Shown here: in pieces, positions 22,914-27,799 of the stretch | Layout: the number at the start of each line of letters is the position of its first letter | Numbering within the stretch: the stretch's first letter is position 1 | Assembly (NCBI GenBank): GCA_017935645.1 | Contig: JAGBHF010000075.1 | Coordinates: forward strand, 1-33,986 | Direction of reading: 5' to 3' | Length of the DNA stretch: 33,986 nt | Source of the DNA: Bacteroidaceae bacterium | GTDB lineage: Bacteria; Bacteroidota; Bacteroidia; Bacteroidales; Barnesiellaceae_A | Position numbers and translations under genes: made by a program | Notes under the pieces: generated by a model | Databases searched by the model: none | Seen by the model: the letters and a program-made list of their open reading frames with translations, nothing else | Told to the model about the DNA's origin: nothing

Positions 22914-23432
22914 TTATTCGTACAACGAGGTTTCGCGGTATAGCATGCGCACGTCGTCGAGGAAGTCTTGCAACTCTTGTTCGTGAGCTTGCTCGTCGGC
23001 GAGAATTTTCTTTGCCAAGTCGCATGTAGTGAAGTCTTTACCGTCGGTCATGGCGGCAATACCTTGGTATCGTCTGATAGCACAACGTTCCGATGCGGTG
23101 TTTTGCAACAGCAATCTTGTAATCTCAAAATCGTTGTCGGGCTCTTCGTAAGCACACTCGGTATATTCAAACCAACGTTGCGGATGTAGCAGGGGCGTAC
23201 CTTCGAGTTGTATGATGCGGTCGACTAATAGCTTGGCATGTCCAAACTCTTCGAGCGCATGTTGCTCAAACTCGCGCTGAATATCGCCTCGCATGGCACC
23301 TTTCATGACCGCAGCGCCTATCCAGTATTGATAAAATGCGAGCCACTCCTCAGCCAATGCTTTGTTGAGTACATCAATTACACGATTTACATTGAGCTTA
23401 TCCTTGATGATAGCTACACTTTCTTTTGCCAT
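22914..23432 (-). CDS. Ferritin-like DPSL (thioferritin-type) protein
   Basis: The start was set at ATG 23432 (MAKESVAIIKDKLNVNRVID), giving 172 residues; the ATG at 23465 would add an unrelated tail. It is a four-helix ferritin-like protein with iron-site residues in ALAEEW (Glu28/29), REFEQHALEEFGHAK (Glu56, His58, Glu62, His65) and ADEQAHEQE near the C-terminus. Cys93 (TECAY) and Cys117 (SERCAI) match the cysteine pair of thioferritin/DPSL proteins such as the Bacteroides fragilis one. These make 12-subunit cages that use peroxide to oxidise iron. It lies 63 bp after the terminase gene and 132 bp before ssb. A peroxide- or oxygen-stress role is inferred from the family. Confidence 0.88.
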   Translation of the reverse strand: MAKESVAIIKDKLNVNRVIDVLNKALAEEWLAFYQYWIGAAVMKGAMRGDIQREFEQHALEEFGHAKLLVDRIIQLEGTPLLHPQRWFEYTECAYEEPDNDFEITRLLLQNTASERCAIRRYQGIAAMTDGKDFTTCDLAKKILADEQAHEQELQDFLDDVRMLYRETSLYE

Positions 23433-23495
23433 AGTAGTTTCAATTAAAAGGTTATACTGAAACAACGAGCGTGTTGCGATTTTGTTCAGTTGTTA

Positions 23496-25490
23496 TCAGA
23501 AAGAAGCCTCGCTGATGGGTATGCCCCTATTGTGCCGGTTGTAGTTGATGATGTTGAATGGCTCTTGGTGAGCGATGTAAAACCCGATGCAACGTGTAAT
23601 GAGTATATCATCATGCTCACCCTCTTGTGCGCCGAAGCTACCGTTGGGCTTGCGCTCAAAGACATCGAACTCGTGACAAGCGTGCTCATCGTGTTCGATG
23701 TAGTAGTTGTTGCGCAAGGCATTTATCATCGTATTGACCAGTGCCGACTTGGTGCTGCGGTTCATGTGAAAACCCCATCGAGTAGGAGGTGTTTCGGAAA
23801 TCTCGTCGCCGATGGCTTGTCGCGCATAGAGGTTGCGGTAGTGCGATGCAATGGTGTCGAGAATGTAGTTGGAGCGAGTATCGTCGCATGATGTTTCGAG
23901 CGTGTTACTCTCGATAACCAACAAAGCCTTGTTGTAGAAGGTGGCAATCTGTGCGGCCTTCCAAGCCAACAAGTCGTGGTCGATGTGTCCGCGCCATTGT
24001 GCTACGAGTTCGACCGTTTCGCCCTGAAGCATGCCTATGCGGTCGAATACGGCAATAACAGAGTAGTCGGCCTTGTGCGAGCGACCACCCACGTCGACAG
24101 CAACGATATAACGGTTGCGAATGTTCTTGTCAATGACCGGCATGTGCCACACTTGCAGTAGCCCCTGCTGCTCCTCGACAAAGCGAATGTCGAGCAGAGC
24201 ATCGCGACCGGTGAGTTGCTTGCCTGCCAAGTCGCCTACCGCTATAGGCGATGAGCAATGCTTACGCAGACGTTGCACTGCCACGGGATCGAAAATGCGC
24301 TCGCCCGAGTATGAGAAGGCTTCGTTCTCGTCGGAGGGGTATTCGGCCATCATGTCGGCATGTCGGGCATATTCGCGACGTTTGGCACGATACCAAGCAA
24401 TAGCTTCCAGTGTAGCGCCCTTGTTCCACAGCCACTCTTCGTATTGGTTTAACGACGAGGCAAACTCCTCGGGGTTGTCGATGTGCATGGCATACATCTC
24501 GATTTCGTACCAAGGGACAAAGATAGCATCTTTGTCGCTCTCGCCACGACGGGTGCGCATATATTCGCGGTGAAAGTATCCGCCTGTACCATTGGCAGTA
24601 CTCTCTATCACCACAATCGAGTAGGGAAGTAAGGCAATACTGCCGTAAATGGAGCGAATAAGACTCTCGGGCGTGTGAGCCGGAGTATCGTTCCAGAAAG
24701 CCGCCTCGCTGAGGTGCGCCATGGCGGCATCGTTGCCACGTACAGCCTCGGGAGACTCCGATGAGCAAATGGTGATTTTACAACCGCGTTGTGCAATGAA
24801 TGACGTGTTGCTTGTGCGTTCGAAGGGCTGGAAGTGAGGCTGTTCGGTCGTGTCAAGCAGCCAAGCCGGGTAGTTGTTGAGCAACTTGGTATACATCCCC
24901 TTGATATTGGCGGCGGCATCCTTGAGGTGAGCACAGATGATGCTGTTCCAATTGCGACAATGCACCAATTGAATCCATGCCATATATACTTGCGTGATAG
25001 TAGAGCCACCCCATTGACGTGCCTTGAGCATGATGATGCGTATAGGCTTGTTGCTCAGGCGTTGAGTCTCGAGCATATCTAAGTATCGGCGTTGCGGACG
25101 GTTGAGGATGAATGGAATATCCTCTTGTCCTTGCTTGTCTTTAATCTTGACAAACATGGCCGCCCAGAACTCGAAGTCGTAGCGAATACGTTCCTTGATC
25201 CACAGCGTCCAGATGTCGCTGCGAAGTCGTTGCGAGGGTCTCTTGCGAAGTCGCGTGGTGATAAACTTATCGATAGAGCCGTCTTGTGCCAGCAACGATA
25301 CCCAATGGCACTCGTCGAGCATAGGTTGAGGAATGTATTGTTGCGCGATAGGAGCATCGGAAAGTGTGATACAAGAGCGCTCGCCTTGACACCCCTCGCC
25401 TGTAGCCGGATTGTATGTCGCCACCATAGAGGCATGGCGGCGACGATTCTCGGCAAGTATCTGTTGTATATGTAACTTGTGGGTGTTCAT
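23496..25490 (-). CDS. Phage-type terminase large subunit (ATPase plus RNase H-like nuclease)
   Basis: The 664-residue protein carries both terminase domains. ATPase: LKARQWGGST (residues 155-164) is a deviant Walker A with the lysine at its start, as in many large terminases; MAHLSEAAFW (257-266) is the Walker B region with Glu262; SIVVIESTANGTGG (291-304) is the coupling motif. Nuclease: Asp466 in YIVAVDVGG, Glu527 in LLVIESNT and Asp627/628 in EGEHDDILITR form the usual acidic triad. Nothing looks decayed. A small gene ends just 2 bp before its ATG, possibly a small subunit. No portal, protease, capsid or tail gene is nearby, so this is an orphan or domesticated terminase rather than a complete prophage. 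Confidence 0.9.
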   Translation of the reverse strand: MNTHKLHIQQILAENRRRHASMVATYNPATGEGCQGERSCITLSDAPIAQQYIPQPMLDECHWVSLLAQDGSIDKFITTRLRKRPSQRLRSDIWTLWIKERIRYDFEFWAAMFVKIKDKQGQEDIPFILNRPQRRYLDMLETQRLSNKPIRIIMLKARQWGGSTITQVYMAWIQLVHCRNWNSIICAHLKDAAANIKGMYTKLLNNYPAWLLDTTEQPHFQPFERTSNTSFIAQRGCKITICSSESPEAVRGNDAAMAHLSEAAFWNDTPAHTPESLIRSIYGSIALLPYSIVVIESTANGTGGYFHREYMRTRRGESDKDAIFVPWYEIEMYAMHIDNPEEFASSLNQYEEWLWNKGATLEAIAWYRAKRREYARHADMMAEYPSDENEAFSYSGERIFDPVAVQRLRKHCSSPIAVGDLAGKQLTGRDALLDIRFVEEQQGLLQVWHMPVIDKNIRNRYIVAVDVGGRSHKADYSVIAVFDRIGMLQGETVELVAQWRGHIDHDLLAWKAAQIATFYNKALLVIESNTLETSCDDTRSNYILDTIASHYRNLYARQAIGDEISETPPTRWGFHMNRSTKSALVNTMINALRNNYYIEHDEHACHEFDVFERKPNGSFGAQEGEHDDILITRCIGFYIAHQEPFNIINYNRHNRGIPISEASF

Positions 25491-25492
25491 AA

Positions 25493-25741
25493 TCAGAGTT
25501 TCTTGAGTTGTTTTTCAATCTCGGCTACCCGTTCGTAGGTGTCGTTGAGGATGTTTTGTTTGCCACCGGCAGGGGCGATTATTGCCAACATATCCTTGCG
25601 GATGGTTTCGATACACTTCATGATAGTGGTTTCGTTGGTTGTTTCGCGCAACACTTCGAGCAAACGGTCGTAACAGATGTTGATTACTTCGTTTTGTTTA
25701 GCTATGATAGCCTCTTGTGAGATATTCATATTGGTATCCAT
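25493..25741 (-). CDS. Small helical protein before the terminase, possible small-subunit-like partner
   Basis: An 82-residue, mostly helical protein with a heptad-like C-terminus (ERVAEIEKQLKKL). It starts at ATG 25741; an internal ATG at 25729 (MNISQEAI) is also possible. Its stop lies 2 bp before the large-terminase ATG, so the two are surely co-expressed. Position and size suit a terminase small subunit, but I see no clear helix-turn-helix and no recognised family. Confidence 0.68.
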   Translation of the reverse strand: MDTNMNISQEAIIAKQNEVINICYDRLLEVLRETTNETTIMKCIETIRKDMLAIIAPAGGKQNILNDTYERVAEIEKQLKKL

Positions 25742-25784
25742 AATAGTAGTTTAAATGTTGAAAAAATCAGATTATCCTTTTATC

Positions 25785-25803
25785 GCATCATGATGCAAAG
25801 TTA
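25785..25803 (-). promoter_or_regulatory. Palindrome and -7-like box between the terminase pair and the divergent genes
   Basis: GCATCATGATGC (25785-25796) is a perfect 12-bp palindrome. Its right end touches CAAAGTTA (25796-25803), which reads TAACTTTG on the minus strand, a match to the TAnnTTTG -7 box for the terminase pair. The palindrome would then cover the transcription start, as an operator might. No clear -33 box is visible. GGTGCGA occurs twice nearby (25805-25811 and 25819-25825). Confidence 0.4.
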
Positions 25804-25855
25804 TGGTGCGACCTTTGCGGTGCGATGCTATAAAATGACAAAATGAAAAAAAATT

Positions 25856-26422
25856 ATGGTAGAAAAATTATTAGGAAGTACCTACAAATATATTGTAGGC
25901 CACGAAGCGTTGAGACGACAAAGAGCGTATCAACAGAAGTATAATGAGTTGAATAAAGCGTATTATGACAAGGAGATGCAGTATGCAACCAACTTGTTCA
26001 ATAGAAATTATTATCGCAATTACATGGATACACCAACCGCTCAACGCATGCTCAAGCAGGTGAGAGATATGTTGGGTGAGCAGACACGTTCGTTGCGCAA
26101 TACATCGACCGTGATGGGCCTTACCGGCGAGTCGCTGGCAGCGATGCAGAAGAGTAATAACAAGGCCCTGGATAGTATGGTGGGTAGCCTCTCGACAGTA
26201 GATGTGCAGGAGAAGGAGCGAGCCTTGTTGAACTATGAAAAAGTGCGTAGTAAGTTGGACAACTTCATGTTCAATGTGCGCATGGATGATGCCGTCAAGC
26301 AAAATGCCTTTGACGAACAAGAGGTGCAAAACCGACTGAATGTGTTGTCGCCGTATATCGAGGATATATTGGCGATGGCAAGTAAAAAGAGAGGAACACA
26401 GCAATATCCCCCGAAACTATAA
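25856..26422 (+). CDS. Helical protein of unknown function, divergent from the terminase genes
   Basis: The 188-residue product is almost entirely helical, charged and glutamine/asparagine-rich, without signal peptide or transmembrane helix. Aromatic-rich helices occur early (KAYYDKEMQYATNLFNRNYY), and the middle holds a flexible part with many Ser/Asn/Met (TGESLAAMQKSNNKALDSM). The composition resembles phage internal-virion or ejection proteins, but no family match is certain. A mini-frame ATG ACA AAA TGA (25835-25846) and an eight-A run lie just before the start. With one A fewer, the frame would begin MKKIMVEKLL. It heads a three-gene plus-strand group on an otherwise minus-strand stretch. 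Confidence 0.7.
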   Translation: MVEKLLGSTYKYIVGHEALRRQRAYQQKYNELNKAYYDKEMQYATNLFNRNYYRNYMDTPTAQRMLKQVRDMLGEQTRSLRNTSTVMGLTGESLAAMQKSNNKALDSMVGSLSTVDVQEKERALLNYEKVRSKLDNFMFNVRMDDAVKQNAFDEQEVQNRLNVLSPYIEDILAMASKKRGTQQYPPKL

Positions 26423-26436
26423 CAGAAGAATGAGCT

Positions 26437-26706
26437 ATGATAAAGAATATGAATCAAGCAAGTATAGCGACACAGCCGGTGTCGGGCAGCGAAAGTGAAG
26501 TGAGAAAGAGTCTTGAGGAGATGTGCAGTTGCATGCGTAAGGAGCGGCGTGTTGTACCACGCTCGCGGTTGTATCGTATGATACACTCGTGGTATGTGCC
26601 TCGTAACGAGCGTGATGCAGCGTGCTACATGAGGCGATACAGCGTGTGGCGCCTGTTGCCCGCACTTGTGGCCAAACGAATGAAAAGAGAGGAGGAAAAT
26701 GTATGA
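26437..26706 (+). CDS. Small basic protein of unknown function
   Basis: An 89-residue protein, strongly basic and tryptophan/tyrosine/arginine-rich in its second half (RLYRMIHSWYVPRNERDAA, then MRRYSVWRLL), with Cys-x-Cys in EEMCSCM. Such composition could bind nucleic acid, but no domain is recognised. It starts 14 bp after the previous gene. Its TGA overlaps the ATG of the next gene as ATGA, which strongly supports real, coupled translation. An alternative start is ATG 26449. Confidence 0.62.
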   Translation: MIKNMNQASIATQPVSGSESEVRKSLEEMCSCMRKERRVVPRSRLYRMIHSWYVPRNERDAACYMRRYSVWRLLPALVAKRMKREEENV

Positions 26707-27173
26707 AAGAGATAGAAAAAGAGTTGGAGAAAAAGAGTCGTAAAAAGCAGGTAGAAGAGCCCGGTGTATTGGAATTCTTGCAGAAGATGTTACCCCTCGA
26801 TGCAACTACCATATCGAGGGAGGCAGTGCTAAGGAATGTGCCTGTTTATGCTCTTGAAGAAGGAGCTTCGTTAGATGATATATTGGGGCGAGTCGACAGT
26901 GTACGACAAAACAAATGGATGGATAATCCACTCTTTCGATATAAAAAAGAGGGCTTGGAAGAGATAAATGTTCAACCCGAAAAGGCGATTAATATGATAT
27001 ATTATCCCGAAATACATGGAGATGTGCCTAAAGAGCAGTTGCTGAAATTCGCCGTAAGTGAGTTGCGCAAGTTGCCTCGGAAGGTGCAATTAGACGACCT
27101 GTTGAAGGATGGCAAGCTCATGCCTACGTTGTGCGAGATAGAGCAACAGCGCAAGGAGGCCGCAAAAGATTAA
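26703..27173 (+). CDS. Hypothetical protein, charged helical start, last gene of the plus-strand trio
   Basis: From ATG 26703 (MKEIEKELEKKSRKK), which overlaps the previous stop as ATGA, the protein has 156 residues. The frame is open further upstream to 26622, but that part overlaps the previous gene. A lysine/glutamate-rich helix is followed by a compact, mixed region (about residues 20-150) with FLQKMLPLDATTISREAVL and repeated VPxYAL/LPRKVQL-type strands and helices. There is no signal peptide or known motif. Its stop overlaps the end of the convergent thiamine pyrophosphokinase gene by 4 bp, so this end of the module is packed against housekeeping genes. Confidence 0.66.
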   Translation: MKEIEKELEKKSRKKQVEEPGVLEFLQKMLPLDATTISREAVLRNVPVYALEEGASLDDILGRVDSVRQNKWMDNPLFRYKKEGLEEINVQPEKAINMIYYPEIHGDVPKEQLLKFAVSELRKLPRKVQLDDLLKDGKLMPTLCEIEQQRKEAAKD

Positions 27174-27799
27174 TAAGCGACGTAAATAAGGAAAGTACCG
27201 TCGGCCGTGATTATGCAACGGTCGGCGGTTGCTTCGTTAAGAGTACCCTGCCACCAGCTGTTGAAGGGGCGAATGGGGTATTGCAAGCCTTGTGCCGAGA
27301 GTTGTGTACAGCCAAAGTTGAAGATGGAAATCTGCTGTCCGGGTCGGGTGATGAGGGTGGTATTGCCCCGGGTGGGGATGAAGATGCCGTGGTCGGTATA
27401 AATGCGAGCCATGATGCCTTGGTTGAAGTATTCGATGAGCAGGCTTATATTGCCCAACGAGTGGTCGTCGCGCTTACCAGTAGCGCCTACGATGGCTATA
27501 TCGTTAACACCCTTTTCGGCAAGGTATTTCACGGCCTTGGTCTGGTCGTTGGTCTCTTGGCACGACGAGATGATGATGCGTGAGGCGTATTGTCGGCGAA
27601 TGTCGTCGGCTATAGAGTCACCGTCGCCAATGATGATGTCGAAAGGCTTGCCTGTGGGTACATAATTGTTGGCAGCACCATCGCAAATGATAACGGAGTG
27701 AGCCTTGTCGAGCACCTCGAGAGGCAGAGCCGCCTGAGGATACTCGCCATTGCCGAGAATAACTGTTGAGGGGTATTTATAGGGGTTTATTGTGTTCAT
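27170..27799 (-). CDS. thiN: Thiamine pyrophosphokinase
   Basis: Makes thiamine diphosphate from thiamine and ATP. The 209-residue protein has the expected acidic motifs: CDGAANN (Asp40), IIIGDGDSI (Asp59, Asp61) and ETNDQTKAV (Asp85), then VGATGKRDDHSLGNI, and a C-terminal beta domain with NSWWQGTLNEA. It overlaps the upstream transporter gene by 23 bp, a sign of coupled translation. The pair would import thiamine and trap it as the diphosphate. No TPP riboswitch is visible upstream. Confidence 0.95.
   Translation of the reverse strand: MNTINPYKYPSTVILGNGEYPQAALPLEVLDKAHSVIICDGAANNYVPTGKPFDIIIGDGDSIADDIRRQYASRIIISSCQETNDQTKAVKYLAEKGVNDIAIVGATGKRDDHSLGNISLLIEYFNQGIMARIYTDHGIFIPTRGNTTLITRPGQQISIFNFGCTQLSAQGLQYPIRPFNSWWQGTLNEATADRCIITADGTFLIYVAY

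Follow-up and report, generated by a model that had tools for sequence, protein, structure and literature searches.

Why should a phage-type terminase, the motor that packs DNA into a capsid, stand among housekeeping genes with no other head gene beside it? The question is raised by a five-gene module in a 33,986-nucleotide stretch of DNA from a Bacteroidaceae bacterium (contig JAGBHF010000075.1 of assembly GCA_017935645.1; this whole stretch is hereafter the window), where the gene of a large terminase (TerL) and that of a small partner face three divergent genes, here called p1, p2 and p3. The answer that emerges from gene content and arrangement is that the module is, to a strength close to certainty, one part of a dispersed, co-regulated and vertically kept particle system, and that this system probably acts as a gene transfer agent (GTA), one with an independent origin in a temperate, P22-like podovirus of the Bacteroides type. 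The genome that contains the window (G000, with the module on its contig C23) is a draft of 2.19 Mb in 96 contigs, and its closest named relatives in a TerL-based contig scan are an uncultured Barnesiella and metagenome-assembled genomes (MAGs) from the gut of sheep, goat and buffalo that are labelled Bacteroidaceae bacterium. Re-examination of all five genes upheld the module coordinates of the initial annotation, including a partner gene that stops 2 bases ahead of the TerL start, an ATGA overlap of p2 with p3, and housekeeping flanks consisting of a ferritin-like gene (PF00210) and a thiamine pyrophosphokinase (TPK) gene (PF04263/PF21275) that shares 4 bases with p3.

The initial annotation had seen no structural genes adjoining the module, and this is borne out: the portal, tail-hub-like (hub) and capsid genes of the same genome sit on other contigs. 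Queries for these three were taken from four prophages of the genus (L036, L037, L005 and L160), in which the genes of TerL, scaffold and capsid are clustered with those of a P22-type portal and a hub-like protein of 880 aa, as far as the contigs reach. A search of the genome for such genes, as the initial annotation had advised, recovered portal, hub, scaffold and capsid genes with a phylogeny matching that of TerL, so that a phage-type head and DNA-packaging set of TerL, portal, scaffold, capsid, connector, hub and p1 is spread over four loci on four contigs (Table 1). The portal is of the P22 type (PF16510 above cut-off), and the capsid protein is identified by phrog_26635 and phrog_1328 together with a profile hit on a major capsid protein of known structure (9in6, E=4e-11). 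Portal, hub and capsid genes were present in all 15 genomes searched, those of G032 and G027 being diverged or prophage-like. No integrase or replication genes accompany the four loci within the flanks that were read, which are housekeeping throughout (neighbour gene names at the portal, hub and capsid loci, and in G067 and G075 below, were assigned by eye). An intact prophage, or one end of such a prophage, was rejected as an explanation, as the head genes lie on separate contigs amid housekeeping genes.

The unlinked loci carry one bipartite promoter signal, TCATTCTATCGCATC followed by CTTTGC exactly 25 bases past TATCGCA (TATCGCA-N25-CTTTGC); in the window, the signals of p1 and of the divergent terS overlap. 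With one mismatch allowed, 35 sites were found in 720 kb of genus sequence, made up of the sequence around these loci and the prophages, and it is there that specificity was measured. Each of the 35 precedes terS, p1, portal, hub or scaffold; simulated sequence gave 0, 0, 1, 2 and 5 sites in five runs, and the prophages within the 720 kb are without the signal. A fit at hub sites often takes two changes, and G007 has fitting sites at hub and scaffold only. When 905 kb of the window's genome, about 41% of it, was scanned with a profile, the five GTA-like sites ranked top, followed by three weaker candidate sites at 22-28 bits, a class for which simulation yielded none. One of these (L174:553, contig C7, minus strand, 27.5 bits) lies upstream of an EngB-like GTPase gene, another (L222:4582, C57, plus strand, 23.5 bits) about 480 bases upstream of a helix-turn-helix (HTH) regulator gene, and the third (L173:971, C6, minus strand, 22.2 bits) a short way ahead of the gene of an MnmC-like methyltransferase. 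The regulator might be encoded by the HTH gene. CTTTGC resembles the -7 element usual in Bacteroidales, which makes box 1 the probable site of a dedicated factor. Box 1 differs in appearance in other families, so that the strict form of the signal is largely confined to the genus, apart from three sites in families f60 and f68.

This arrangement recurs across the genus. TerL, hub and capsid occur in all nine species and the unlinked portal in eight; for TerL this is far above chance, and the peculiarity first noticed in the window is therefore real, with the amendment that p3 as first read is an internally deleted form. TerL occupies a common site, at least on its aroA-ssb or its TPK side, in eight of the nine. 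The full order aroA-ssb-(dps) / terL-terS // p1-p2-p3 / TPK-pnuC-tatD-ispA is found in G002, G004 and G005; the window's gene order holds to the contig end in G006, and the aroA-ssb-dps side is alike in G001, G003 and G008. In G007 the block from TerL to p2 is present, with neither usual flank within about 9 kb. The neighbours of portal, hub and capsid likewise recur in other species of the genus where the flanks are covered. A second window-type locus in G004 (L047, on its contig C18) matches, with the same identity, the G001 species and is probably MAG contamination. Two ways in which the module might have proved trivial thus fall away: it is not one end of a prophage across the genus species, and it is neither absent nor generally degraded in relatives, the only damage being that to p3 in the window's species.

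Selection and descent point the same way. The ratio of nonsynonymous to synonymous substitution rates (dN/dS) is 0.04-0.10 for TerL, capsid, portal and terS (0.05-0.07 for terL and for terS), like that of adjoining housekeeping genes, these values being rough as dS is near saturation. Protein distances of the unlinked TerL, portal, hub and capsid correlate over all genomes (r 0.74-0.95). In the trees of TerL, of capsid and of portal, one cluster is formed by G000, G001 and G005 and another by G003 and G008, and dispersed copies separate from prophage copies of the same genomes; the trees largely agree, with several forks poorly supported and some branches long. Taken together, these patterns indicate long-term vertical inheritance under purifying selection. 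They bear directly on the idea of a degenerating prophage, an ancient one broken by rearrangement into decaying pieces without joint function. Such a history would account for genes that are phage-derived and separated, for the want of integrase and lysis genes nearby and for the p3 deletion in the window's species, but the genes are intact in nearly every species, dN/dS is low for TerL, capsid and portal, the catalytic motifs are intact, and one promoter signal is kept upstream of unlinked loci. Neutral pieces would lose intact genes and promoter signal alike, and we consider decay quite unlikely.

The terminase identity proposed at the outset is secure: TerL matches phrog_2 (E=1e-23, PHROGs profile search), and parts of it align to T4 gp17 (3ezk/3cpe). 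It has a Walker A motif of the deviant type with the lysine in front (LKARQWGGST), the further motifs HLSEAAF and ESTANG, and, for the nuclease, the acidic residues of VDVGG, VIESNT and HDD. Thirteen dispersed copies conserve these motifs, and four prophage copies have nearly all of them, with small changes; the catalytic motifs are intact. The small partner adjoins TerL throughout the genus and in two other families; a structure prediction, of which only the helical make-up was used, gives an all-helical protein of three helices (predicted local distance difference test, pLDDT, 68). The gene that precedes TerL in prophages encodes proteins of 128-144 aa with a repeated motif, to which profile comparison found no detectable similarity in the partner. 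We regard the partner as a candidate small terminase subunit (TerS) without a recognisable DNA-binding domain, and if it is TerS, the loss of that domain would explain unspecific packaging.

Could TerL instead serve as a defence nuclease, or as an orphan packaging motor working alone at this locus? Its nuclease domain is intact and no head genes are nearby. The head, portal and hub genes nevertheless co-evolve with TerL and have its promoter signal, and PADLOC returned no match, which makes a solitary role scarcely credible. Two of the four ideas in the initial annotation, a defence nuclease and a phage satellite remnant, are not supported, given the missing PADLOC match, the lack of an integrase in the flanks read and the almost complete set of head genes present in trans. 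Of the four, the split GTA-like locus held up, on the strength of single-copy portal, hub, scaffold and capsid genes elsewhere that have a matching phylogeny, a common promoter signal and retention across the genus.

Domain and PHROGs profile searches gave no convincing family match for p1, p2 or p3, as the initial annotation had supposed. The p1 profile does match prophage proteins (L160:4342-4941, E=4e-21; L036:3838-4452, E=6e-18), and the prophage homologue is encoded beside the hub gene; the likeness of p1 to internal virion proteins suggested earlier stands so far as homology to a protein of the prophage structural region (E=4e-21) goes. Profiles of p2 and p3 found no relative in the prophages and phage examined, nor did that of p3 in the phage collection.

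Table 1. Features of the window's module and its promoter signals, of the unlinked loci in the same genome, and of the corresponding genes in three genomes with long contigs.
Feature	Position	Strand	Remarks
Ferritin-like gene	window 22914-23465		PF00210
Large terminase (TerL)	window 23496-25490	-	664 aa; packaging ATPase/nuclease
Small TerL partner, candidate TerS	window 25493-25741	-	82 aa
p1-p2-p3 promoter signal	window 25781..25818	+	box 1 TATCGCA (25781-25787), 25-base gap, box 2 CTTTGC (25813-25818)
terS-terL promoter signal	window 25795..25832	-	box 1 TATAGCA (25832-25826), 25-base gap, box 2 CTTTGC (25800-25795)
p1, helical protein of the virion region, probably an ejection/internal head protein	window 25856-26422	+	prophage-protein profile match
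p2, small protein	window 26437-26706	+	position kept across genus
p3, internally deleted form	window 26703-27173	+	156 aa; alignment with eight full-length orthologues
Thiamine pyrophosphokinase (TPK)	window 27170-27799	-	PF04263/PF21275
Portal (G000)	C26:13913		between a helicase-like gene with its neighbour and DUF1460-like and aldehyde dehydrogenase genes
Tail-hub-like protein (G000)	C25:46168		beside menB-menC-menE
Scaffold, major capsid protein and connector (G000)	C67 (capsid at C67:19295)		between pepP-like and ligA genes
G297 (closed)	hub 1,132,351; portal 1,148,894; capsid 1,395,213; TerL 1,427,270		span 297 kb
G360	hub 478,778; portal 499,324; capsid 837,016; TerL 930,883		one contig, within 454 kb
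G264 (closed)	capsid 2,725,554; TerL 2,758,780; portal 2,772,576; hub 2,774,684		within 52 kb

Where did the set come from? The P22-type portal and the related TerL, capsid and hub place its likely origin in a P22-like podovirus lineage. The Bacteroides temperate phages BS-TP4, BKO1-TP3 and BF1-TP2 and the prophages L036, L037 and L005 hold the closest relatives of TerL (43-45% in the phages), capsid (41%) and hub (22-26%); no relatives appeared among viral contigs by peptide pattern. These phages and prophages have like kinds of genes, but, in contrast to the dispersed set, they keep them near one another and have replication genes and a larger TerL partner, and BKO1-TP3 holds TerL, scaffold, capsid and portal inside 8 kb. 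The window's genome itself also contains genuine P22-like prophage pieces (L005 on C77 and L159 on C10) with portal, hub, TerL and their own ssb; their TerL is 53% identical to the dispersed one, and the dispersed-type promoter signal is absent from them.

Of 90 further genomes from outside the genus, 6 hold TerL relatives, at other sites; that of G067, for example, is near genes for ribosomal proteins and tsf, and that of G075 lies between secA and rplU. The capsid gene occurs in 33 of 393 sampled Bacteroidales genomes, mostly in one copy per genome, across families f1, f25, f28, f60, f68, f88 and f109 (six besides the window's), with prophage-like copies in f20 and f22; TerL, portal and hub were searched in 21 of the 33. 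In G264, G297 and G360 the genes are spread over 52, 297 and 454 kb, and p3 of G297, at 1,156,598, is near portal and hub and away from TerL. We lean, by a modest degree, towards an old GTA common to several gut Bacteroidales families, with terminase, portal, hub and capsid each at its own site and tied only by a dedicated promoter signal and regulator. The members of f25 (G032, G145, G240, G317 and G380) have a diverged version with a short portal (461-598 aa frame) and a capsid gene adjoining it, TerL about 1 Mb off in G240, and hub matches that are weak or missing; this may be a reduced or fast-evolving form. Next to the capsid gene, G007 and several other families have fibre-like proteins with a common N-terminus (L149:8122-9030 and L154:11778-15254). 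In eight of the nine genus species the connector gene is followed immediately by a gene (L143:10905-12290 and orthologues) for a protein of 459-478 aa with a signal-peptide-like start, which is not phage-like.

How might such a scattered set work? A putative regulator or sigma factor recognising TATCGCA-N25-CTTTGC would switch on the unlinked loci jointly, and a procapsid of scaffold and capsid protein would be assembled on the portal. TerL, with its observed motifs, and the small helical partner would then pump in host DNA by headful packaging, connector and hub would close a short tail, p1-p3 would probably be packed inside and ejected to bring DNA into a recipient, and release would need lysis genes that are not located. 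With genes 52-454 kb apart, a podovirus-sized particle could not hold the set that encodes it, and its cargo would therefore be essentially host DNA. The same parts might serve a domesticated particle with a non-transfer role, for example a lysis device, or a capsid loaded with DNA or protein that serves killing or storage. Transfer is a prediction, a tail fibre was not found in most of the genus, and loss of p3 could mean that delivery was abandoned in the window's species. What is kept, however, comprises portal, connector, hub, a phage-related p1 and a DNA motor whose motifs are intact, as DNA packaging and delivery require, and a DNA-free killing tube would need no TerL, portal or capsid; a non-transfer role accordingly seems unlikely to us.

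Several observations count against a working GTA and have to be set beside this evidence. The case is built on genes, and particles, packaged DNA and transfer are predictions from them. Within the window's genus neither lysis genes nor a regulator were found, nor a tail fibre other than a fibre N-terminus in G007. Most genomes, the window's included, are draft assemblies, and G006 (85% complete) has only a prophage's portal. The TerS role of the partner is drawn from position and a modest structure model, and p1 and p2 evolve faster (dN/dS 0.14-0.42 for p2). Finally, p3 is internally deleted in the window's species. Full-length p3 of relatives has 681-864 aa, a glycine-rich hydrophobic region and an HExxGH motif; the window's copy keeps the N-terminus and a C-terminal GxxMPxLxxIE but is without about 550 central codons, in frame, and both central regions are gone. 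A genome search found no second p3 copy, and a fold prediction for p3 (pLDDT 40) was not used. The deletion could mean that full delivery was lost in this species, that the short form works or has an altered role, or that the assembly has wrongly joined two places; DNA delivery may thus be impaired there.

Were particles of this GTA to carry host DNA, they would provide a named gene-exchange mechanism in an order with high horizontal transfer rates, and would show how far a phage genome can be dismantled and yet be kept as a single system; on the older, multi-family reading, a major part of the gut microbiota would have a built-in gene-exchange system. Prophage finders overlook such systems because each locus resembles a stray phage gene, and the common promoter signal offers a simple route to the regulator, to missing lysis and tail genes and to similar systems. 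The open-licence literature yielded no GTA report for Bacteroidales, nor a GTA paper on Barnesiella or Muribaculaceae, which is weak evidence of absence.

GTAs are known mainly from Alphaproteobacteria, to which a handful of isolated cases and, of late, gut Bacillota can be added; RcGTA is siphovirus-like, and VSH-1 of Brachyspira hyodysenteriae is long-tailed, with head and tail genes that are still clustered. In a study of packaged DNA in the gut, packaging of the GTA-like kind was seen chiefly in Ruminococcaceae and Oscillospiraceae, and Bacteroides showed lateral transduction (PMC12946183). FpGTA of Faecalibacterium, whose particles and 8.4-8.9 kb DNA have been demonstrated, has a 10.5-kb operon of TerS, TerL, portal, scaffold and capsid and a second operon (PMC12946183). 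The Bacteroidales set shares with it a gut host, podovirus-like head genes, a TerS without obvious DNA-binding domain and more than one locus, but differs in having at least four loci, in belonging to another phylum and in being known from genes alone. RcGTA TerS is also without a specific DNA-binding domain (PMC7947584), as is the FpGTA candidate TerS (PMC12946183). VSH-1, which PMC11841831 presents after Stanton (2009) as a divided-genome GTA, resembles the Bacteroidales set in particle genes split over separate chromosomal sites; going by descriptions, the Bacteroidales set stands apart in its P22-like parent and in having a separate locus for each of terminase, portal, hub and capsid. With RcGTA and the alphaproteobacterial GTAs it shares phage-derived genes kept vertically and accessory loci elsewhere (PMC7947584, PMC11841831), yet RcGTA has a core structural cluster, whereas the Bacteroidales set has none and its portal is P22-type. 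GTAs in general are said to consist of a core structural cluster and accessory loci, and the loci can be hundreds of kb apart with one or two genes each (PMC11841831); in the Bacteroidales set even the core is split.

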